NCBI GenBank assembly: GCA_963971425.1
Contig: OZ020524.1
Span: 7,116,417-7,180,416, forward strand
Reading direction: 5' to 3'
Length of the DNA stretch: 64,000 nucleotides
From: Bryoerythrophyllum caledonicum
Taxonomy: Eukaryota > Streptophyta > Bryopsida > Pottiales > Pottiaceae
The notes beneath the pieces are model-generated. The model did no database searches, was not told the origin of the DNA, and was given only the letters and a program-made list of their open reading frames with translations. Position 1 is the first letter of the stretch, and the number at the start of each line of letters is the position of its first letter. Of the stretch, positions 28,849-61,915 are shown piece by piece. Made by a program: the position numbers and the translations under genes.

Positions 28849-30838
28849 CTGCACAAGTTATTACGCCGAGGTTAAACCAACTGTCACATAAGACACTTTG
28901 CGAACCCAGAACTATTGCGACTTTATACAACTAGAATGAAGCAAAACAAGATTCAATGCCACTGCAGTCTCCGGTAAATCCATAGTTTGCAATTGAAGGC
29001 TGAGCAGGTGAGAGGAGTGCTCTTAAGGCTTAGAAAGCGTACCAGAAACGCTGTCTGTTCCACTTCCAAGAGAGAATCGCAATCGCCTTCTCCGCAATCA
29101 CTGTCCACAACATCTTATCAGTTTCCCAAACGTGTCTGTTCAAAGCTATCTATCTCCGGGAAGTGTTAAGCATTGAACATGACGCGTTGAATGATGCGAG
29201 CCCACAGAAAATTTGTGAAACTTCCACCACACGCAATTGCATGTCAGAGCACAATGCTGAGAGCAGGTATACCGAGACTTCACGTTTTCTAACTCCGCGA
29301 TAAAGGCAAAGCACGCACGCGGTTAATCACTGCCAAGAAAAGACCTCACACGAGGATACCTCTCAAGAACACTCCCTCTCTCCAATTCACGACAATAGGC
29401 AACATCCAATACTCTCATGACGACTATCGCAACAGAAGAAGGAGCACCTGTAATTGAAGCTATCCTACCAATCAAGAAAACCGGGAAAAATCGGACAACG
29501 ATCGAGACACGGCAAATCCACACAAACAAAGTTACAATTGAAACAATAGCTCTACAAAACAGTGTAGCGGGAGCAAACAACTCACCTTCTCCCCCGAATT
29601 CTTCAACCTCCGAGCTATCGCAATTTAAGCCTGCGCAACCGAACTAAGCCTGCGACCGATCCTACAAAACGCAAATTCACTCTACATTTGCCAACTCGGA
29701 ACGCCAAACACGATCTCTAACGGCAAACTACACTCATCAAGATATCATGTCCGCAACGAATAGAAAACTATTCTAAGCAGACTCCTCCTTCTCCTAGATA
29801 AACAAGAAACATCTCATGGAGCTGTGATCGTGATCGCAGCTCCGGAACTCATTTCCTCCAGAAGAGAGCGACGAAAACTAACGCTGCGGAGTGCGCACAC
29901 AATGAAGCCTGCACACGAATCAAACCGACATACAACACTGTCGTGAGAGACGACAGCATTTGTCCGTCTGTTTGTCCATCCCGTCCGCCCATTTTGGCCA
30001 TGTCCGTCCTTTCTGGCTACCCTGATTAGAATGCATTGACACCCCAATCCTTGATTTTGAGCTCACAGTTTGAAGTTCTTTGGTAGTTGTATGTCCATTT
30101 GATGTGTTTCGCTGAGCTCGAGGCAAATTTCTTCTCTCTGGTCTACAATTTCATTATGAATATTGTCATCACACAATGCCAGTAGTTACGAACTTATCTC
30201 TTTCACGAATGTTTTTTCATATTGTTTCACGAATACCAAATATGCATCCGTGTTCAAAGTGAATATATTTTTCTCATACATGCTTCAACAGGTGGTTGTC
30301 GTCACACAAATTAAGGTCCATAGTGTGGTTGTTGCAACATAAATTAATGTCCACAGCGAACTTGATTCTAATCGCCAGCTACATACATATAGAAAATCAC
30401 AGCAAGAATGTCGTGTAAAAATTGCTACTGCTTTCATTCCATTTGGAAACAAGAAATTATATATATTCCATTTGACAAAGCTCCCTATTTGTGAACTTCG
30501 ATTGGTGAGGGCCGCCGAAAACGAGCCCCCCCTGCCACAAATTATGGCTTGTATGCCTCCCAAGGAAAGATACTAGAACATCCATCCCCCAAGTGCAATG
30601 GACACGGTTGCCCCAGGCCATCCGCCTTCGTGCTCATGGATCGATCCCGCCCAGGTGAGTGACAAATCGTCACTCCGGAGGCTACTTGTAAGCCGGGACA
30701 TTCACAAATAGCCCCAACGATATGGCACAAAACGAAACTTGGGAAGTGTTGTTACGTATCTTCAGGATGTAGTGTAATAAGTTATATTTTCACGATGCCT
30801 TGAGCTCGCTTCCAGTCCAAGGCATAGCTGGTTTGATG
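28849..30838. other. Intergenic, nothing recognised; one small tandem duplication
   Basis: Open frames around 29323-30126 lack motifs. At 30291-30357 a 33-bp unit (GTGGTTGT...CACA/AACA..AAATTAA(G/T)GTCCA) is duplicated in tandem. Confidence 0.4.
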
Positions 30839-35743: not shown

Positions 35744-36011
35744 TCCCAAAGTGAATGTTAGATTTTGCCAAGAAGTTGATTGAAAGTAGGTGTATGAGGA
35801 GGATGTGTGAGAGTGTGGTGAGATATTTTACAAAGAGAAGACAATTGACATCATATCTTACCACTTCTTTTGACAACTACAGTGACAAGTCCCTCCAAAA
35901 CTGCTACCAAAAATCACCGTAAGATGCTTAGGTGACATGGACTGAAGCAAAATCCCCAATATTGACACACTCGACATGTTGCGTATGTACCATTGATTAG
36001 CTAGATCTTCA

Positions 36012-36208
36012 CGTTGAGAAGACAATCATAACTTGTGTGTACAAGCTGAGAGCTGCGCAAGTGCGCACTGCATTATGAAGGGCGAATGCCAGAATATATA
36101 CATGAGTGCTATCAGTACAAATAGACCTAACTAATGAAAAAGGTAAAGAAATGAATGATAGTGGGATGAATGATGAGACGTCCTTCAGGAGCGTTGTATT
36201 CGTCAACA
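36012..36208 (-). repeat. 3' LTR of the copia element
   Basis: Starts CGTTGA (the outer T of TGTTGA has changed to C) and ends TCAACA on the plus strand. Nearly identical to 41341-41537. Confidence 0.95.
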
Positions 36209-36760
36209 TCCTCCCTCGCTCCGAAGACGGCACTCTGCAGACAGGGAAGATGCGATGTCAAGATTTCGGGGGTTTCCCCCTGCCGTGGCCTACCAGTGGA
36301 GAGACCAGGTGGATCGAATGTCAGTGGTAAGGGTCTTGGTTTCCTATATTTGTGTGTCGTTACAGGAATTCACAGGTGCTTGTGGTTGCAGGTGGAGATC
36401 CTGCTGCTCTGTAGTTGGTTGTTGTGTATTGTTGTTCGTCGTTTCTATGACGCAGTGACGGATGTCTTGTTGTTCTGGGCGACGGCCACAAGTAGAGAGG
36501 AAACTGAGTTACACCAAGAAGCGGATAGTATTGTAACTAGGGCTTCATCAAGTGGTGAGTCGGGAGGAAAACGGGAGTTGGTGGAGGCTTTGTGGCAGCA
36601 ATACTTCAATAATCCGGAGGAGTGGTGGGACAACAGGTTGAAGAAGTGTAACCCCAAGCAGCCTGACTTCAAGAATATGAGGACTCGAGCAGCGCTTTGG
36701 ATGGACGGATATTATACGCCTGATTGGGTAAAGATGAGGTTTAGTCAGTTGCAGCAATGA
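36209..36760 (+). pseudogene. OSB-type (PDF motif) gene fragment carried antisense inside the copia element
   Basis: The plus strand between the 3' LTR and the pol end encodes, in one frame to a stop at 36758-36760, LVEALWQQYFNNPEEWWDNR, then KKCNPKQPDFKNM, RAALWMDGYYTPDWVKM. This matches the C-terminal PDF motif of plant OSB proteins (organellar single-stranded DNA-binding; WWDNR...PDFKH...ALW...WV). The OB-fold part is not present. A possible splice donor follows MSRFRGFPPAVAYQWRD near 36330. The fragment lies within the LTR-bounded unit, so it was probably captured by the element. It could also be a chance frame, but the motif match is specific. Confidence 0.55.
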
Positions 36761-39700
36761 TACCGGCGGTGTGTCTGTCCTGATTAAACTTCTTGTAGGA
36801 TAGAGGTTTAGTCAGAAAGTCAGCCTGCTGCAGGACGGTTGGTGTGAAATAAACTTGTGTGTGACCTTGGTCTGTGGTTTCTCTGATGAAATGTGCCTGT
36901 ATTCCGATATGTTATGTGCGTGCGTGCAACACGGGATTCTACACAAGTTTAATGCAAGACTGGTTGTCGCTATAAATTGGTGTTGCGTCTTTCATGTGAA
37001 TGCCAATCTCTATAAGGAGACGTCTAAAATAAAGCACATCTTTAGACGCATCTGTCAACACCCGATACTCTGCTTCAGTACTGGACAGTGATACAGTGGG
37101 TTGAAGCTTGCTCGACCAGTAAATACAAGAGCCACCTAATTTATGCAATATGCCGGATGTGGATCTACGCGTATCAACATCTCGTCCCCAATCCGCATCC
37201 GCATATGTGTGATAAGTGCCTGAGCTTTCTGAAGCAAAGAATAGTCCATGGTGTTGTGTTCCTTTCAAGTATCTTAAGATTCTCTTGGCAGCTTAAAGGT
37301 GTGCTAGTTCAGGTGAGGACATGTAACGTGCCACACAACCTACTGCGTATGAAATATCTGGACGAGTATTAGTTAAGTAGATGAGGCTCCCGACCATAGA
37401 CCTGAATAGTTCGGGGTCTACTATGGCAGTCCCGGTTGATTTCTGTAGTTCTGAACTTGGATCCATAGGAAGTTGGCTGGGATTGCAAGTTTCCATTCCA
37501 AAGCGAAATAATAACTTCTGGATGTAGGCTGTATGGGTGAGAAGTATACCATTAAGGAGGCGACGTATTTCTGTGCCTAAATAAATCTGTGCTAAACCCA
37601 AATCTGACATGCGAAATTCCTTATGAAGTGCTTCTTGTAGATGCTTGATACGTGCCTTGTCATCTCCAGTGATAAGTAAGTCATCGACGTATAGTAGAAC
37701 AAAGATCTTTTTGCCGTTCCGTGTTGCAAAATAAAGATTAGGGTCATATTTTGAACGTGTAAGTCCCTGTGATATCAGCCATGAGTCCATGCGGGAGTAC
37801 CATACTCGAGGTGCTTGTTTGAGGCCATACAGGGCACGGCGTAATCTGCAGACCTTACTAGGATCGCCTGCATGTGGAAACCCCTCCGGTATTTCCATTA
37901 AAATGTCTTCAGTGACAGTTCCATTAAGGAATGCCGTGACGACATCCATTTGGTGGAGGTCCCAGTTGTTCTGTGCTGCGAGAGCTAATATAATGCGTAT
38001 AGTGGACCATCTTGCGACGGGAGCAAATATATCATCGTAATCCACTCCTTCACGTTGCTGGAAACCTCGTGCAACGATGCGAGCTTTAAATTTCTTTGTG
38101 TCACCTGTGACCTTCTCCTTAAATATCCATTTTGCCGTTATGGGCTTGCGGTTGGTGGGTCTGTTGATAATATCCCAAGTGTGATTATCCAACACACTGC
38201 TAATCTCACTGTCGATTGCTGCTTTCCACCCGGCATGCTGGACAGCATCTGCAAAGTGTATTGGTTCCTCGCTGGTTTCCACATGAAGTGCCCAATAATC
38301 ATGCATTCTCTGTGAAGGACGTCGCTCACGTGTAGATGAACGCACCGGCCGTGTTGTTGCGCGTATTTTGGAGCGTTGTGAAACGATTGCTGGTTGGTCG
38401 GTGGTACTGCTACGGTGTTGGTCATCGGTTGATTGTTCCTGCGTGATCGTTAGGCGTGCCTGCAAGTCTGTAGGGGGCATCACGGTAATAGGGCTGACCC
38501 CTATAGCCAATGGAGTGGGCCCGTCTGGATAATGACTGTCGATATTCTCGAGAGGCAAAGTGACCGAGGAGGTTGGTTGGCTGGAATCATGATGTGGATT
38601 CAGAGGCTCATCATGGGTTGCTAGAGACTGGCTTCCCGGAGCTAGTGGAAAGTGCCTACTATTATTGCCGCCCACAGAATGTGTGGTGTATGTGCTCTCT
38701 AATGGATCAGTCGCCGAAAGTGGTATTGTGTAACTAAAATCTGAGTGGCTTTCTGTATGGGTCATCTTCAAATGCTGGTTTCCGACTCGGCGTTCATCAA
38801 AAATCACGTCACGTGTAATTATGATCTTTCTACGAATAGGATCATACACCCTGTATGCTTTTGATTCTGTATCATATCCTACGAACATGCATGCGTGGCT
38901 ACGCTTATCCAGTTTCTGACGTTCACTATCTGGTATATGTACATGCGCCATACACCCAAAAATTTTAAGATTTTGAAGATCAACAGGTTTACCTGTGAAA
39001 CTGGATTCAGGAGGAATGCCATAATTGGAGCGCGTGGGACTTCGATTGATCAAAAAGGTTGCCATTGACACGGCTTCGGGCCACAAAAACGTTGGAAGTT
39101 GACAATCAGCTGCAATGCTTCGTGCTCGCTCCATAATTGTCCTATTTCGTCTCTCTGAGATACCATTTTGTTGTGGTGTCTTAGCCTGGGTCAATTCACG
39201 TTCGATGCTATGTTTAAAACAATAGTTCTTGAAAAGATCAGAAAGATATTCGCCTCCCCTATCAGACCGAAGTGCAAGTAGCTTGTGTCCAGTTTCAGCT
39301 TCTAGCTTGGCTTTAAAATGGGAGAAATATTTGAAAGTTTCACTCTTGTGTCGCAGAAAATATGTCCAGCTCTTTCTTGACAGGTCGTCTGTAAAAACGA
39401 GGACAAAACGTGCACCGCCCAATGACGGTCGCTGTAGCGGGCCTATCACATCCGTGTGAATTCTCTGCCCTACATGTGTTGCTCGAGTTTGTGACCTTTT
39501 TGGGAACCTTTCTCGCTGTTGTCGACCTTCAAGACAACATGTGCAGATGCGGCTGCTAATATTGATGCGGGGGAGCTCGATGATATGCGTTGATCGTGAA
39601 AGAAAGCTGAGACCTGAGTAACTCAGATGACCTAATCTCCGGTGCCACAAGTCAGCCTTGTCACATGTTTCCACAGAAAGTACTTCTTGTGGTTGCTCAT

Positions 39701-41225
39701 TTAAAAAATACAGGCCATTTCTCTGGTCGCGAGTTCCCTTTGCAACTACGTTACCATTCTTGTGAATCCAACAATGTGTCGGGGTGAAAAGAACAGTATG
39801 CCCTGAGTCTGCAATAGTTCCTACAGAGGCAAGATTCTTTCTCAAAGTCGGTACGTAGCGAATGTTCTCGAGTTTTATTTCCCCATTTGAGGTGCGAAGA
39901 GTAGAGGTCCCAGTTCCTTGAACGGAATGAGATTCCCCTCCTCCAGTCCTCACATTACTCTGGAAGTCAGTAGGAGTAGGTACGTAATCTAGTCTGTCCG
40001 CCTCAGATGCTACATGAGACGATGCTCCACTGTCAAGATACCAAGGACTATAGTTCGTATTGTAGTATGGATCAGTATAATAATATGGAGCGTAGGAATC
40101 ATCGAATACCTCAGCCGCATATGCATACTCGTCGGAATCCACGTGAGGAGGTCCGCTTCTACAATCCTTGGCGATATGACCGGGTTTGCCGCATGTGTAG
40201 CATGAGAAAGTCGGTCTTGGTGACGTTGTATGTGATCTTGGTAGTGCCGGTCTCCAGGCAGTGCCACGTCCTCCAACATAGCCTCGGCCTGGAGGTCCAG
40301 CTGCGTATTGTACTCGACCCCAACCTGTTCCTGGAGGGAGCCGCCACCATGGAGGACTTCGTCCCCACCGTCCACGGCCTCGGCCTCTCTGTCCTTGTGG
40401 TTGACTCGTTCCGCCTTGTTGTTGGTTTGACGGTCGTCTTCCCTGTTGCTTGGTCGTAACGGACAAGACCTCATCTTCCCCGTGAAGCTTTGCAAAAGCA
40501 ATGCGCCGATAATGCTCTGTCATGAGATTCGCGCTGAGTTTCTCGAAGGTCATGTTTGGATCTGTGCGAGTGATGGTCTGCACAATACTAGCATAGGAAC
40601 GTGGTAATCCGTTAAGAATAATTTGGTTAAGGTGCTTCACACTAAGTCCCTTGCCCATATTGGCAAGTCGATTCTTGAGTTCACGTGCACTCCTCAGGTA
40701 GTCCTCCGCGGAGCCTCCTTCCGAAAGTTTCAGCGTTTGCAGCTCATTCAACAGTGTGAGAACATTGGTTTGATCGCCGGATGCAAATTCTTCCTTGAGA
40801 GCAACCCATGCTTCACTCGGATCTGTGTGTTCTGCAATCGTATCAAGCAAGCTATCAGTGACTGAGCGAAGCAAAAAACGACAAGCAACAGCCTTTCGTT
40901 TGTTCAGTTGAACTTCAGTGAGTTCCTCTCCTGCTATGTTGACAGGATAGACAAGAGGAGAGTGCTTGGTCTCCGTAATATCCCACACACTCTCTCCTCT
41001 AAGAATGCCTCGCATTTTCAGGCTCCAAGCATAGTAATTTTCTATCCCTTTCAATTTCTCATCCTCCTTTACTGTGGAGTTGTCCATCTTTCTGGATTCT
41101 TCCTCTCTCTGTACCTGTCTAGTGACTAGGCTTGACTCCCTGTAATGTGACAAGGATTCTTCCTTGATTCTAACTGGAGACTCTACGAATTCTCTCGACA
41201 GTTCAACTACCAGCTTCGGCGGCAT
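36740..41225 (-). CDS. Copia gag-pol polyprotein, three stop codons in the RNase H end
   Basis: From the ATG at 41223-41225 (MPPKLVVELSREF; an alternative ATG is 41085-41087) the frame is open to a TAA at 37293-37295, about 1310 codons. Gag carries the zinc knuckle CYTCGKPGHIAKDC. The protease motif is YLDSGASSH. Integrase shows HRRLGHLSYSG...CTCC (HHCC zinc part) and TPQQNGISERRNRT at the DDE Glu. RT has FKARIVARGFQQ, LYGLKQAPRVWY and YVDDLLITG. RNase H continues in the same frame past the TAA (ADADWGRDVDTRRSTSG, SSTEAEYR), with further stops near 36939 and 36910, and ends near 36745 (QADFLTKPLS). The main block is intact but the RNase H end is not, so this copy probably cannot replicate alone. 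Confidence 0.93.
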
Positions 41226-41325
41226 TGCCTTCCAGTCTGCCGGCTTCTTCCTTCTCTGATGATATGTGACAACTCTGTTCCTACTTCCTGTCACAAGTTT
41301 CTCACTTCTATCTATACTAAAAAAC

Positions 41326-41340
41326 ACCGCTCTGATACCA
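41326..41340 (-). other. Primer-binding site of the copia element (tRNA-iMet type)
   Basis: On the minus strand, TGGTATCAGAGC follows the 5' LTR directly; the plus strand reads GCTCTGATACCA. This is the common primer site of plant LTR retrotransposons. Confidence 0.9.
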
Positions 41341-41537
41341 TGTTGAAAAGACAACCATAACTTGTGTGTACAAGCTGAGAGCTGCGCAAGTGCGCACTGC
41401 ATTATGAAGGGCGAATGCCAGAATATATACATGAGTGCTATCAGTACAGATAGACCTAACTAATGAAAAAGGTAAAGAAATGAATGATAGTGGGATGAAT
41501 GATGAGACGTCCTTCAGGAGCGTTGTATTCGTCAACA
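41341..41537 (-). repeat. 5' LTR of the copia element
   Basis: Begins TGTTGA and ends TCAACA (plus strand), with perfect TG...CA ends. Followed by the CTTCA target copy at 41538-41542. Confidence 0.95.
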
Positions 41538-48266: not shown

Positions 48267-48941
48267 TTAACCCCTAACGACCCGAGGCGTTTTCACACCA
48301 AAAACCCTCGTTCTAGTGCAATGAGTAAGGAGGGAAACAAATGACTTTTAGTCTTCATTTAATTCATTTAAGACTTATTAAGTAACATCCTTGCAAAATT
48401 TCATAAACTTTGACCACATGGATTGAAAGATTATAGTGTTTGAAGTAAAGAAGACCGTTCATTTTCTTCCGTGCCTTAAGTAGATTTGTAGACTTTGACT
48501 TCACTTGGTATCAAGTTTTTGCACTACGCAAGGTCTAAATCCATTACCATCATGTTGATCATAATGTTGTTTCTTTGTGCACCAATTTTTAGAGATGGGT
48601 ACAGCATATTCAAAAATCAATGTGCTATCTTTCACTAAAGACAAGATTTTTTTTTTTGGACAATATGAAAGGAAATACTATTACTTGCTACTATTGGAAA
48701 TCTCACATTTAATAGAGCGTAGTGACAAGAGTTTTTTAAGTGGCTCAATGTGCCCACTCTTCCCATTTGAAATTCAAGACCCTATAACTTTTTCCTCAAA
48801 TGTCGGATTTGGGAAAAGCTGTACTCACACGAAGCTTTAACTAATGTCCATTTACCGTATTAATTTCAAAAAGGAATGTTATAAATTGACGCCTAAACCT
48901 TCAAAGTTCCTTGAGGGGATTCTTGGGCCTTTATGGATTAA
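48267..48941. mobile_element. TTAA-flanked element E, reverse orientation relative to element A
   Basis: Left boundary TTAA at 48267-48270 then CCCCTAACGACCCGAGG. Right boundary TTAA at 48938-48941 preceded by GGGCCTTTATGGA, a decayed inverted end. The interior at 48350-48500 is the reverse complement of the conserved block of element A (GACTTTGACTTCA..., AAATTTCATAAACTTTGACC). Confidence 0.55.
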
Positions 48942-56516: not shown

Positions 56517-56528
56517 TGATATCAGAGC
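56517..56528 (+). other. Primer-binding site of the gypsy element (tRNA-iMet-like)
   Basis: TGATATCAGAGC differs by one base from the plant iMet primer site TGGTATCAGAGC. Confidence 0.6.
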
Positions 56529-56624
56529 TACAGTGACCTCAACAAATGAGTCAATGCATGTATCTGTCAACTTCGGAGAGATACTCAGGAGATTGTAGAC
56601 ACTCTTGATGCTCCACGAGTCCCT

Positions 56625-57623
56625 ATGGATCATTCTATTCCGTTATTGGCACGTTCTATTCAGTGGCAGCCACTAGTTGAGGGTATCACTCTCGTAGAGT
56701 TGTTCGCAGGCATTGGCACCGGGTTGGCGGCTGTGATTGAAGTCGGGCTCAAGGTACGGCGGTATATCCATGTGGATAGTGGCTTCCCAGCCAACCGTGC
56801 CGCTCGCCATCACATACAACGTTTATTGGCGTTGTATCCACAGCAACTACCATCATCTGCGATCCGTGGCTGCTTTGGCAAATTGCCACGTGATGTTACA
56901 TTGATCAGTGAGGATGATCTTCGACGGTTGAGTCATGTGGATTTGATCATCGCGGGATGGCCTTGCCAAGGTCATTCACGAGCGGGCAGTGGTCGTGGAC
57001 TTGATGATCCACGTTCGGGGCTCTTTGCGGATTTTCTCCAGCTGATTCAGTGGTGGACTACCCACCAGTCCACACCACCGAGGTACATTTTTGAGAATGT
57101 ACCTCCATTAGGGGACACTCGAACGAAGGTGCGTGAGGATAGTGTTTATATCCATCACCTTCTTGGTCCTCCTACTTTTGTAGATGCCGCTGCGTTGAGC
57201 TCATATGCTCATCGTCCACGTTGGATTTGGACCAACTTGGTTTGTTCAGCGATTCTCACTTTGGCACTTGCTCAAGTGCAACGGCCCTTTCACCGTGAAG
57301 TCACTGATATTTTGGATGATCACCGTGTTTCCACGATGGTTATCAAGACTCACGAGCCACCGTTAGCTGTGGTGAACCGAGTAGGCTTTGATCGAGGGGC
57401 ATTTCCTACCTTTATGTGTTACCCGGGGTCTTTTGCTTTTCGAGCACAAGGTCCGGGCATGGTTTGGGATGATGTCTCCCAAGCTTATGAGGAGCCTTTT
57501 GCTGATGAGAGAGAGCGGGCGATGGGCTTTTTGACTGGCACCACCGCTGCTCCACGTCTCTCGGACGGGCAGCGCCGCTTCTTCTTGGGTTAAGCCATTG
57601 ACTTTAATACTCTAGTTTGGGTT
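56625..57623 (+). pseudogene. Cytosine-5 DNA methyltransferase domain at the N-terminal side of the gypsy polyprotein
   Basis: Transfers a methyl group from S-adenosylmethionine to cytosine in DNA. From the ATG at 56625: motif I VELFAGIGTG (residues 24-33), motif II region RRYIHVDS, motif IV GWPCQGHSRAG with catalytic Cys114, motif VI FENVPP (Glu157-Asn158), motif VIII YAHRPRW (Arg197, Arg199), then a short target-recognition region and a motif IX-like ADERERAMGF. A TAA at 57591-57593 falls in motif X, where LG-stop-AID replaces the expected GQA/GNA. The frame continues after it (AIDFNTLVW), so the domain ran to about 57623. At ~330 residues it is a bare catalytic domain with no chromo, BAH or zinc finger part. 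The frame is open upstream to about 56540, so the native start may be earlier. It is in the same frame as the RT. Confidence 0.85.
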
Positions 57624-60030
57624 TGTGGGCATGCATTTGCCATTCAACGCCATGAACGTGACCATTCTTATGTGCTGGGGGCAGCTATTAATGGTCAGGG
57701 GGCAACGAAGCCACACCTCACGGAGACTAAAGAATCGGTGCTACTTCATCGTTTGGAGAGACATGCAGCAGAGGAGCTTTGTGCTTAGCATGTCTTTTCC
57801 GCCTTAGCTCAGGATTTTGGAGCAGCGGATGCTCGGGATATCTTTTCTCGGGTTTATTATCACAATGAGGGATTTTCTATGGATCCCTTGGGTGAGGAGT
57901 CTGGGGGCATGAACGTCCTCTCTGCTACTAAGTAGCAGTCACCGGCCGTGCCAGCACGTGGTGAGTCTCTAACTGTGGAGAAGGAGACCACGGAGTTTGA
58001 TGATTGGCCGTTGGAGTTAGGGCCACATCTTACTGGTGCCGAGGCACGAAGGGTACGGGCGTTCATACGCTCGTACCGGAGTTGTTTTGCCTTTAGCCTC
58101 CAAGATTTGGAGGGCTATAGAGGCAAGTCTATTCACATTCAGTTGGAAGACGACCACCTGATCTTCCGGCGACCGTACAAGCTCAGTCTTTCAGAGAAAA
58201 TTGGTGTTCAGACTCGGTGTCAGGAGTTGTTGGCTGCCAGCTTGATTGAGCTTTCCAACGGCAAGTATGCTTGTGCCACGGTTATGCCATCGAAGAAGGA
58301 TATCTTTGGCAACTGGACGGAGAAGCGGATGTGTGGGGATTACCGACCGGTTAATCGCAAGACTAAATCGGACCGGTACCCCATGCCCACGCCGGAAGAA
58401 TTATTTGATGCAGTAGGAAATTCTAGAGTATTTAGTACTCTAGATTTGAGGTCCGGTTATCATCAGCTGCCATTGATGGTGGATGATCGGGTGAAAATTT
58501 CATTTTGGGGAGTTGATCAGGATGGGAGAGACCAACTTTACCACTGGAAGTTTCTTCCATTTGGCCTCAAGAATGCACCTGCAGAGTTTCAGAGGGTGAT
58601 GGACCGAGTGTTGACTGGTTTACCATTTGCCCGATGCTACATTGATGATGTTATCATCTTAAGTAGTAGCCCACAAGAGCATATGAGGCACTTACAAGCG
58701 GTGTTTGAGAGGTTATGGCAGTGGGGATTGCGCTTGCACCATGGCAAGTGCAAGTTCTTCCACGATCGGTTACCATATTTGGGACATATGATTGTTCTGG
58801 GAGGTCTTGGCGTGTAGCAAGCCAAGGTGGATGCGCTTCAGAAGATTCCGGCCCCAACCGACATGTCACGACTCCGAGCTTTTCTTGGCTTGGCGAATTA
58901 TTATCGCCGGTTTGTCAAGAACTTTAACTTGATTGCTAAGCCGTTGACTATACTCATGGGGAAGGATCAATCATGGACTTGGGCACGGGAGCAAGAGTAG
59001 GCATTTGCTACTTTGAAGCTTAAGCTCGGTGTAGCGCCAGTTTTGCGATGTCCGGTTGCTACACGACCCTTCCAGTTGCACACAGATTGGAGTGCTGTTG
59101 GATTGGGAGCGGTTTTGACTCAGAAAGATGACGAAGGACGGGAGTATGTTGTTTCTTTTGCTTCTAGGAGCAACAACAATGCGGAATCCAACTATTCATC
59201 TTATGAGGGAGAGGCTTTAGCAACGGTATGGGCTATAGCACATTTCCGGCCCTACTTGTATGGGCAACATTTTACCTTGGTGACCGACCACCAACCTTTG
59301 AAGTGGCTTATGGAGTCTGACAAGCTTACTAGCAAGCTGGCCAGATGGGCGTTGTTGCTTCAGGAGTATGACTTTGAGGTTGTGCATCGGGCCGACATCA
59401 CGAACTTGGATGCGGATGGACTTTCCCGCAATCCAAGCCCTTCAGAGGAGGATTTGACTGGTGCCAGGTGGCATGGGGACTGCGATAGAGAGGCGGTTCC
59501 GGGGTGGCATGCAACGGCCTATCTCACTTTGATGTCTGGCTCTGTATCTACATTGTCTGATTTAGCAATGGATGAGGAATCAGACAAGGCCCAGGTTATT
59601 AGTGATGTGTGGGAAGACATTCCAATCTTGCACAAGCTACAACATGGAATGCTTCCACCGGCTCTTTCGGCGATGGAGCGTGATCAAGTTGGACACCAAA
59701 TAGTAAGGTTCCGTTGAGAGAACGTATGTGGCCGGATGGGACTATTTCGTATGTGGCTGGATGGGACTAGGCGCATAGTTCTCAGACCAGATCAGAGAGC
59801 TTTGTTGGTTCGGCAAGTACACGAAGATCTTGGACATTTTGGTGTGCGACGGACTCATTCTATGTCGCGCAACCAGTACTGGTGGACCGGCATGTATCAG
59901 CAAGTCGCCACTTATGTTTCACGGTGTGAGGTCTGTGATTGAGTTAGATCCAGCTTCAACACTTTGTCACCACAGCTGCAGCCGTTGCCCATTATGGGGC
60001 TTGGCTACCGGTGGTCTTTAGATTTTGCTG
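57624..60030 (+). pseudogene. Gypsy RT, RNase H and integrase N-terminus, in frame with the methyltransferase
   Basis: The frame continues from the methyltransferase through a ~110-codon linker with stops at 57786 and 57933. RT shows LIELSNGKYACATVMPSKKD, RMCGDYRPVNRKT, STLDLRSGYHQLPL, FLPFGLKNAPAEFQRVMD and the catalytic CYIDDVIIL. The RT connection (FLGLANYYRRFVKNF) follows a stop at 58815; another stop is at 58998. RNase H shows LHTDWSAVGLGAVLTQ, YEGEALATVWA and LVTDHQPLKWL. After a TGA at 59715 the integrase zinc part reads HEDLGHFGVRRT...CEVCD, a TGA at 59940, and then WSLDFAG, where the element is cut. All stops are TAA, TAG or TGA in one unshifted frame; no indel frameshift was found over 3.4 kb. 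Confidence 0.88.
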
Positions 60031-60879
60031 GTGTGAGCCAAATAAACCGCCCCTAAAGGGTGGCTTATCTTGAACACAAGATCCTAATACGGGGCCTAGT
60101 TCTTTGTGCAACTAATCCTCAGCCCATTCACACACAACTTATACGAGCATGGTGACACATCTCATGCTTACTTAGGTTCCTTGTGGTTGATTAGTGAGGT
60201 GGTGACTTAATCCAGCCTTTTAATTGAACCCACCCTTGAACGGAGGTAACTTTTGCTCTAGAGCTCCGAATCCAACGTTTTCAACCCCCATGGGTTCGAT
60301 TCAGCATCACGAACTCGATTAGACCCTTAAAGGTCAGCTCCAGGCTTAGGTGTGACCCTGGAATCAGTCGGCAGCAGACAGGCCCCCATATTTTCTACAG
60401 ACTTATAGTACCATTTATCTCCTTGACTATAACTCCGTTTCGTATGGTTGTTTTCATTAATCTTATTAGTTTTTTGTGCTTAACATGATGGCAGCCTTCA
60501 ATTAATCATTTGACTCGACCCTCGACCTCACAGCTAGCGACCAGCAGTGCACCTTCAACATACATGTGTACTCAAAAATTGTAACCAACCATTCACGTGC
60601 ACGCCACATATACTTCACATGATTAACCCCACCTTAACACTAAGCTATGCATGAGCATCCCGCTGTGTTTTCTTATTCTTGTAGATTGATCACTTGGTTG
60701 AGTTGAGCTGATTGCAACCCTAATTCTAGTGAAATTTTGACAGCGCTTCCGCGTGACGTGTGTGACTAGAAAATTAGGGTTCCTTTATGCACAAGGAATC
60801 GACTACTAGCCGGGGGGAAGGAGAGGCTCTCTGGTTTGATTCAATTCACCCTCCTTCCTTCAGTTGTTCGTGCTTTGTG
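60031..60879. other. Intergenic, nothing recognised
   Basis: No gene motif. The sequence directly after the truncated integrase (CCAAATAAACCGCCCC) marks the break point of the gypsy copy. Confidence 0.4.
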
Positions 60880-61915
60880 ATCTCGTCTTTTTTGTGTTCT
60901 GCTCATCTCATCCTCTTCGTGTTCTACTCAGCTCGTCATCTTCATGTTTTGCTCAGCTTGTCCTTTTCGTGTTCAGCTTTTCGCTCAGCTCGTCCTCTTC
61001 GTGTTCTGCTCTTCGTGATCTTCGTGATTCAGCTCTGCTCGCCCTCTTCGTGTTCTGCTCTTCGTGATCTCGTCCTCTTCGTGATTCAGCTCTTCGCGAT
61101 CTTTGTGATTCAGCTCTGCTCTTCGTGATCTTCGTGATTCAGCTCTGCTCGCCCTTTTTGTGTTGTGCTCTTCGTAATCTTCGTGTTCAGCTCTGCTCGC
61201 CCTCTTCGTGATTCTGCTCAACTCGTCCTCTTCGTGTTCAACTCTTCGCTCAGCTCGTCCACTTCGTGCTCAGCTCGTCCACTTCGTGCTCAGCTCGTCC
61301 ACTTCGTGCTCAGCTCGTCCTCTTCGTGTTCTGCTCTTCGTGATCTTTGTGATTCAGCTCTGCTCGCCCTCTTCGTGTTCTGCTCTTCGTGATCTTGTCC
61401 TCTTTGTGATTCAGCTCTTCGCGATCTTCGTGATTCAGCTCTGCTCGCCTTCTTCGAGTTCTGCTCTTCCTGATCTCGTCTTCTTCGTGATTCAGCTCTT
61501 CGCGATCTTCGTGATTCAGCTCTGCTAGACCTCTTCGTGTTCTGCTCTTCGTGATCTCGTCCTCTTCGAGTTCTGCTCACCTCGTCCTCTCCGTGTTCTG
61601 CTCTTCGTAATCTTTGTGATTCTGCTCTTCGTGATCTTCGTGATTCTGCTCTTCGTGATCTTCGTGATTCAGCTCTTCGCTATCTTCGTGATTTAGCTCT
61701 GCTCGCCTTCTTCGTGTTCTGCTCTTCGTGATCTCGTCCTCTTTGTGATTCAGCTCTTTGCGATCTTCGTGATTCAGCTCTGCTCGCCCTCTTCGTGTTC
61801 TACTCTTCGTGATCTCGTCCTCTTCGTGTTCTGCTGAGCTTGTCCTCTCCGTGTTCTGCTCTTCGTAATCTTCATGATTCTGCTCTTTGGGATCTCGTCT
61901 TCTTCGTGTTCCGCC
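60880..61915. repeat. About 1-kb minisatellite of CTTCGTG-based units
   Basis: Variants of CTCTTCGTGATCTTCGTGATTCAG, CTCGTCCTCTTCGTGTTCTG and CTCAGCTCGTCC alternate through the block. At about 61252-61318 a perfect 20-bp unit (CAGCTCGTCCACTTCGTGCT) repeats at least three times. The period is a mix of 7-8, 15 and 20-24 bp. Both strands give long open frames (minus-strand Glu/Arg/His-rich text such as NHEDHEEQN; plus-strand Ser/Leu/Phe-rich text), which follow from the repeat and are not taken as genes. Confidence 0.9.

Follow-up and report, generated by a model that had tools for sequence, protein, structure and literature searches.

Retroelements carrying DNA methyltransferases

The closest described system to the element reported here is KnitGypsy-Dnmt3 of the charophyte Klebsormidium nitens, in which, according to the available text of PMC5890265, Gypsy coding domains are accompanied by a non-rearranged Dnmt3-type DNA methyltransferase (DNMT) within the coding region, the methyltransferase is under purifying selection, and the repeats are arranged as in DIRS elements (Fig. 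4 legend). The same text describes two retroelements of Symbiodinium with a DNMT in the coding region, SymbioLINE-Dnmt and SymbioDIRS-Dnmt3, the latter with repeats in the order A-coding-B-A-B. As far as their available texts go, PMC12344493, citing de Mendoza 2018, places DNMT3 members in long terminal repeat (LTR) and DIRS elements of streptophytes, and PMC6338049 states that land plants 'such as tracheophytes' lack transposons of this sort. Here we describe a Ty3/gypsy family of the moss Bryoerythrophyllum caledonicum, one decayed copy of which lies in a stretch of 64,000 nucleotides (hereafter the window; contig OZ020524.1 of assembly GCA_963971425.1, positions 7,116,417 to 7,180,416). The family is a real, high-copy and apparently recently active element of the known Gypsy-Dnmt3 kind, in which both the host and the arrangement are new: its products are ordered Gag-protease (PR)-DNMT, in-frame UAG, reverse transcriptase (RT)-RNase H-integrase-PHD finger, inside terminal repeats of the form A...B-A-B. 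The statement in a first-pass annotation of the window that a charophyte harbors retroelement-borne C5-methyltransferases is borne out by KnitGypsy-Dnmt3.

The moss family shares with KnitGypsy-Dnmt3 the Gypsy coding domains, the selected Dnmt3-type enzyme and the DIRS-like repeats, and with SymbioDIRS-Dnmt3 the order of those repeats. The Klebsormidium protein compared here (P0150) likewise has the order PR-DNMT-RT-RNase H-integrase. In contrast, the available text of PMC5890265 places the DNMT of KnitGypsy-Dnmt3 in the Pol open reading frame (ORF), whereas in the moss the DNMT forms the end of the Gag-PR frame and a conserved UAG follows. DNMT and RT are thus not found in one uninterrupted Pol ORF, and strict membership of KnitGypsy-Dnmt3 is therefore not assigned. 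The terms 'PHD' and 'readthrough' do not occur in the main text of PMC5890265. The host differs as well, and the moss family comprises at least 117 scored copies, many of them with nearly identical terminal repeats. Unlike the Symbiodinium elements, of which one is a LINE and the other a DIRS element using a tyrosine recombinase without target duplication, the moss family encodes an integrase with a DDE (rve) core and is flanked by 4-bp target duplications in eight of the ten copies for which both flanks were read. The order PR-RT-RNase H-integrase with a DDE core is that of Ty3/gypsy elements (the PR match of the reference copy, L011, lies below the Pfam cut-off), but in place of the plain paired LTRs of that group, which come with a tRNA primer site, the moss family has the repeats A1...B1-A2-B2. 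Chromoviruses are Ty3/gypsy elements with a chromodomain behind the integrase; the moss elements likewise carry a histone-reading-type domain at the integrase end, which is a PHD finger instead, and no chromodomain was among the Pfam matches of L011 ORF2.

New, then, are the presence of more than 100 copies in one green-plant genome, the kin in Marchantia and, within the element, the conserved stop and the PHD finger. In a sister clade, to which a chlorophyte element belongs, the DNMT takes a second position, which is new as well. The proposal that the architecture may be new to land plants holds in part. A literature search by titles and abstract openings, with subscription papers and preprints mostly outside it, found no report of DNMT-bearing elements of mosses or liverworts; the novelty is only partial since Marchantia proteins combining DNMT and RT (P0207, P0213) are already in public databases.

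Copy number and anatomy of the family

In the 437-Mb assembly (894 contigs), a methyltransferase query gave 117 scored matches, the window's own included, among 2168 candidates, a count that is a lower bound. With RT-RNase H of L011 as the query, 77 scored matches were obtained from 6061 candidates. A DNMT lies upstream within 8 kb on the same strand in 66 of these 77, at exactly 577 bp in 49 of them, and DNMT sequence, whole or part, was recognized in nine of the remaining 11 when 700 bp of each were read. In total, all or part of the DNMT stands beside RT in 75 of the 77 scored copies, and the join between methyltransferase and Pol is more than chance.

Twenty copies (L011-L030) were read in 9.9-kb stretches, with L011 serving as yardstick. 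Open copies consist of a first frame of 1353 amino acids (aa) and a second of 1047 aa in the same phase with a single stop between them. The first-pass annotation had called for a search for intact copies with DNMT and RT in one frame; both frames are full length in three of the 20, with the UAG between. Nine of the 117 scored DNMT matches are free of stops and lie in a 1353-aa frame, and 13 of the 77 RT matches are likewise free of stops and lie in a 1047-aa frame. The longest frames among the matches listed are 1426 aa (DNMT query) and 1112 aa (RT query), compared with about 2400 aa for a frame open through the UAG. By Pfam, frame 1 of L011 holds DNA_methylase and sub-threshold aspartic protease matches, and frame 2 holds RVT_1, RNase H, Integrase_H2C2, rve and a PHD finger (PF00628, 1.9e-10); Gag zinc knuckles are visible by eye in the L011 translation.

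The termini follow the order A1 (362 bp)-coding-B1 (about 106 bp)-A2-B2, the element starting with TGTCACGG and ending with ACACGACA. B flanks A2 on both sides in 17 of the 20 loci, with one B in L025 and L029 and none in L030. No B was found before A1 in the ten copies in which A1 and its upstream side were read, A1 was not found in L020, and no primer site after A1 was recognized by eye. The two copies without a target duplication are L026 and L011, the flanks of the latter compared by eye. Within copies, A1 and A2 show 0-4 differences over 333-362 sites in nine of the ten measured and 10 differences in one, and this near-identity suggests that the family was recently active. As a separate observation, the B1-A2 junction of L011 (9101-9180), ACACGACAGCTGTCACGG, is a palindromic join of both element ends, like a circle junction.

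A further copy of the DNMT-bearing element, L002 (9285 bp; DNMT 96% identical), is filed under the cyanobacterial metagenome-assembled genome AVDCRST_MAG81, in whose name we take AVDCRST to mean desert crust, and its presence there is presumably contamination. The 127 bases at its start recur unchanged at its end, which points to a circular assembly, whether a collapsed repeat or a true circle. Scans of viral contigs with P0077 and P0101 found no relative, and the one viral match otherwise obtained was L001, at 32%.

A methyltransferase of the DNMT3 family

An AlphaFold2 model of the window DNMT (pLDDT 82.6) has its best Foldseek matches in the PDB in DNMT3B, DNMT3C and DNMT3A, with TM scores by target length of 0.69-0.77 for those of the 15 top-ranked chains that are domain-sized and lower values for longer chains. 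A profile search of the PDB ranked DNMT3A (80 bits) before 4onj (labelled only 'DNA methyltransferase'; 41), DRM2 (38) and HhaI (35). None of the 49 PDB profile matches passing E 0.001 is labelled DNMT1, chromomethylase or DNMT2, and these types were rejected; the rearranged (DRM) type was rejected as well, since motifs I, IV, VI, VIII and X follow one another along the frame in canonical order. By nearest sequence, predicted fold and motif order, the enzyme is a member of the DNMT3 family. Letter-exact blocks were counted in 22 copies and found for motif I in 18, IV (the PCQ block) in 21, VI in 16, VIII in 19 and X in 18; L028, an old copy, has no letter-exact block.

Comparison of L011 with L002 gave ratios of nonsynonymous to synonymous substitution (dN/dS) of 0.049 for DNMT, 0.034 for RT, 0.014 for PR, 0.013 for integrase, 0.058 for the PHD finger and 0.109 for gag, whereas the linker that follows the DNMT has a ratio of 0.328, from which we conclude that the DNMT is under purifying selection. 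When L011 is set against five further well-preserved copies from its own genome, the small dS makes the ratios noisy: RT or RNase H rises above 1 in three of the five, with DNMT remaining at 0.06-0.14. For L028 and L029, which are decayed, the DNMT ratio to L011 is 0.34. The best PDB sequence matches of the PHD finger include PHF12, CHD4, KDM5, PHF21A and UHRF1.

A conserved stop codon between DNMT and RT

An alignment of the stop drew on 63 own-genome sites (69 minus six duplicate loci), of which 57 could be mapped and six could not. TAG is present at 56 of the 57, followed by CAATCA in 55 and by CAGTCA in one, the window copy. In a direct search, TAGCA[AG]TCA occurred once per copy in all of L011-L030, immediately before RT, and L002 shares these nine bases and likewise has a 1047-aa ORF2. 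Among 385 nine-base segments around the junction, the one at the stop departs least from L011 in mismatches (58 rows). The available texts of PMC5382211 and PMC4132726 give UAG followed by CARYYA as the signal for type I readthrough in tobamoviruses, among others, a motif to which UAG-CAR-UCA conforms; in tobamoviruses readthrough yields the replicase (PMC5382211, available text), whereas here it would yield Gag-PR-DNMT-Pol of a chromosomal retroelement. In 17 of 22 sequences (the 20 copies, L002 and the window copy) the earliest in-frame methionine of ORF2 is residue 117, inside RT; the frame of the other five breaks before that residue.

The stop is not shared by all relatives. A search with ORF1 yielded 22 proteins. 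The 15 long ones (P0078-P0092) terminate 102-161 aa past the DNMT and P0093 terminates 92 aa past it, P0094 and P0096 have no DNMT match, and P0095, P0097, P0098 and P0099 each combine DNMT with RT, uninterrupted by a stop. The stop is thus not essential to the kind and, on the sequences compared, is the mark of one branch of it.

Relatives in green plants

Proteins joining DNMT and RT come from Klebsormidium (P0150) and Closterium (P0172), from Marchantia (P0207, P0213) and from numerous metagenomic contigs. They often possess a PHD finger as well, and the DNMT occupies either position 1 (between PR and RT) or position 2 (between RNase H and integrase). A Pol tree built from 36 proteins has its 20 position-2 proteins on one side of a branch with support of 100 (quick method). 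In a DNMT tree of 53 proteins, rooted on five bacterial enzymes and built without host DNMT3, the 23 position-2 proteins group with two unplaced algal proteins (96/97). A single change of position explains the labelled proteins of this tree, where P0016, P0017, P0038 and P0048, whose neighbors were not seen, are labelled position 1 by assumption and six proteins have long branches. A named position-2 carrier is P0211, taken from its JGI code to be of the chlorophyte Chromochloris. Tetrabaena P0187 gives a weak DNMT match (25%), with no precomputed PF00145.

A second Pol tree, of 32 proteins, unites the family with liverwort proteins, from Calypogeia, Riccia and Marchantia, in one clade (100/100), apart from the chlorophyte elements. 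Within this clade the link between family and liverworts is weak (87/60), a second Calypogeia protein (P0165) is placed elsewhere, and among these liverwort matches only the Marchantia proteins carry a DNMT. Taken together, this kinship of the Pol, the plant-like contexts of the C>T changes given below and the near-identical L002 would suggest a moss or another bryophyte as host. Klebsormidium P0150 appears in both the Pol and the DNMT trees, its exact place being weakly supported and the trees lacking host DNMT3. Judged from trees so composed, the distribution has the look of prolonged vertical inheritance among green plants. The available text of PMC5890265 reads the acquisition of the DNMT as having occurred in the K. 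nitens lineage, a reading that may need widening since Marchantia, Closterium and a chlorophyte contribute kin to the trees, again without host DNMT3.

Separately, a protein of a 553-kb metagenomic contig (P0215), near Klebsormidium P0150 and the chlorophyte elements in the 32-protein Pol tree, is a Gypsy polyprotein with a PHD match and PF05869 and without PF00145; PF05869 is a Dam-type adenine methyltransferase.

Proposed expression strategy and alternatives

The conserved UAG-CAR-UCA, the common phase of the two frames and the lack of an early methionine in ORF2 point to a Pol expressed by readthrough, with the DNMT on the abundant Gag side. We consider it likely that Gag-PR-DNMT is the product of the first frame, that Pol of the second is obtained by readthrough of the UAG, and that the DNMT, present at a Gag-like dose, acts on complementary DNA (cDNA). 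Specifically, most ribosomes would stop at the UAG and yield abundant Gag-PR-DNMT, whereas occasional readthrough would yield the full polyprotein supplying Pol. The DNMT, probably made together with Gag, would enter the particle in Gag-like amounts and, if catalytically active, would act where cDNA is made, the simplest outcome being methylation of the element's own cDNA or new copy. The PHD finger may serve as a chromatin reader steering integration, which leaves 4-bp target duplications. The suggestion of the first-pass annotation that the DNMT is fused to Pol is accordingly retained as regards phase and revised as regards a simple fusion, since open copies end Gag-PR-DNMT at the UAG-CAA-UCA before Pol begins.

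Several observations tell against readthrough with a packaged DNMT. TGG replaces TAG at one of the 57 mapped sites (L090), the RNA 3' of the stop folds just moderately better than shuffled sequences (z -2.66), no Gag model matched in L011 by Pfam and its protease matches stay below the cut-off, and two of the 77 RT copies have no DNMT in the 700 bp read. If the stop were instead an ordinary terminator, Pol would have to be obtained by splicing around it or by re-initiation. Such a scheme would accommodate the relatives that dispense with the stop (P0095 and P0098 among them) and the Marchantia gene models P0207 and P0213, whose short DNMT-RT spacers could, as we read them, stem from predicted introns. 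It also gains from the ATGs that lie in some frame near the stop in most copies, and the case against re-initiation is weakened by the predicted ORF2 proteins of the near relatives P0100, P0101 and P0103, which start with a methionine close to the stop, although a bacterial gene finder may have taken a GTG or TTG codon for the start there. An ordinary terminator, however, would not need the six bases after the UAG to be conserved as strongly as the stop itself, nor the two frames to be kept in the same phase, and all 17 sequences that reach ORF2 residue 117 lack an earlier in-frame methionine; we therefore regard this explanation as quite unlikely.

What the enzyme does is a distinct question, on which the copies themselves bear. 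Of 817 singleton changes in 14 copies, 483 are C>T or G>A, with rates per site of 0.157 in CHG, 0.138 in CG and 0.094 in CHH contexts, a pattern that would fit host methylation in plant-like contexts followed by deamination. Across the 20 copies, the observed-to-expected CpG ratio ranges from 0.73 to 0.91 and is mostly close to 0.80, as compared with 0.79 in a Copia frame of the window and 0.76 in the rest of it. Apart from two decayed copies at 0.73, the ratio is no lower than in these two comparisons. The CpG depletion that self-methylation might have imprinted is not visible, and the self-methylation suggested in the first-pass annotation gains no support from it. This absence, a further point against the model, and mutations that look as if the host methylates the copies anyway would suit a DNMT that disturbs host silencing, whether by competing with host DRM/DNMT3 or by mis-methylating other loci, rather than one methylating cDNA. 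A place in the Gag frame would put the enzyme in particles more naturally than in the nucleus, and we hold a role in host silencing to be unlikely, if far from negligible. That the domain is a nucleic-acid-binding or RNA-methylating part, with DNA cytosine methylation beside the point, is very doubtful given its DNMT3-like fold and sequence, the lack of a DNMT2-labelled entry among the PDB profile matches and catalytic blocks intact in most copies. Finally, the broken and truncated state of the window copy could have raised the suspicion of a chance neighbor, or of a methyltransferase inserted separately beside an ordinary gypsy element. We give this next to no credence, as it is refuted by the genome copies: the two outcomes that the first-pass annotation had named as fatal to its claim, namely that no other copy joins the domains or that the DNMT is a separate insertion beside an ordinary gag-pol element, are countered by the 75 copies noted above and by a DNMT located inside the element, between PR and RT. 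The purifying selection on the DNMT and the parting of the DNMT and Pol trees at the same place oppose it as well.

The window copy and its surroundings

The window copy is a Ty3/gypsy fragment on the plus strand, 56585-60031 (3447 bp), with both ends missing and 83% DNA identity to a genomic copy of the family. Homology spans only this interval, a slightly different extent from the 56533-60030 of the first-pass annotation; gag, PR, integrase core, PHD finger and terminal repeats are thus absent from the copy, and what precedes 56585 lies outside the element. An open stretch of 347 codons (56550-57590) contains the C5-methyltransferase region of DNMT3 type from about residue 12 (PF00145, E 1.7e-13), followed by a decay stop, TAA, at 57591-57593. 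A linker (57594-57932) leads to the conserved stop in its leaky-looking context, TAG CAG TCA (57933-57941; nearly all other copies have TAG CAA TCA). Downstream lie RT (57936-58814; RVT_1, E 1e-29), RNase H (59001-59714; RT_RNaseH, PF17917, E 1e-38) and the zinc-binding domain of integrase (59718-59936; Integrase_H2C2, PF17921, E 2.8e-17), the core (rve) being cut off shortly beyond.

The identification of a Ty3/gypsy element carrying a C5-methyltransferase is upheld by these four domains, all in a single phase, and each of the motifs cited for it is present: FAGIG at 56703, PCQ at 56961, ENV at 57093, HRPRW at 57210 and YIDD at 58638. The single unshifted frame also described there is correct as to phase and not as to openness, for seven in-frame stops interrupt it (57591 TAA, 57786 TAG, 57933 TAG, 58815 TAG, 58998 TAG, 59715 TGA and 59940 TGA), of which that at 57933 is the family feature and the remaining six fall where the frame of open copies continues. 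Nor is the methyltransferase complete, as had been thought, since the TAA lies inside the LGQAIDLN stretch (motif X) of relatives.

Relative to L011, the window copy shows dS of 0.92 (DNMT) and 0.75 (RT) with dN of 0.097 and 0.027, respectively, and from this combination of large dS and small dN it seems to derive from an older, separate and itself selected subfamily. The highest identity to its DNMT is that of a metagenomic protein (P0007; 89%, covering 66% of the query), own-genome copies reaching at most 83%. Bacterial contamination as the source of the window was rejected, the window lying on a 23.5-Mb contig and family matches on 13 large contigs.

Directly before the fragment, 56519-56532 resembles, by eye, a plant tRNA-Met primer site. 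Its reading as part of the family was rejected: DNA comparison found neither family terminal repeat, A or B, in the window, and the motif therefore belongs to something else, perhaps another LTR element that carries, or was broken by, the fragment. A short way downstream of the fragment is a dense tandem repeat (60947-61896) of TTCGTG / CTGCTC units. Elsewhere in the window are a Copia-like element recognized by eye (36010-41537), with an uninterrupted 1388-aa frame on the minus strand (37293-41459) and flanking direct repeats of 199 bp that are 98% alike, a U1 small nuclear RNA gene (30506-30662, minus strand, 80.9 bits), and inverted repeat arms at 1488-2184 and 48364-48817, about 80% complementary and 46 kb apart.

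Implications

A broader reading can be offered only tentatively, as one that we judge somewhat more apt to fail than to hold: a green-plant-wide Ty3/gypsy lineage, older than land plants, would package a DNMT3 with Gag by means of a leaky stop of plant-virus type and end its integrase in a histone-reading PHD finger, such that new copies could arrive methylated and aimed at chosen chromatin, and its DNMT would have moved once between the PR-RT and RNase H-integrase positions. Transposons are a main target of plant cytosine methylation (PMC5890265, available text), and a successful transposon that conserves its own de novo type methyltransferase therefore presents a testable paradox. With at least 117 scored copies and near-identical terminal repeats in nine of the ten measured, the moss family would give a tractable system, and its conserved UAG-CARYYA would be a clean readthrough candidate in a plant LTR element, setting the dose of the DNMT at the level of Gag.

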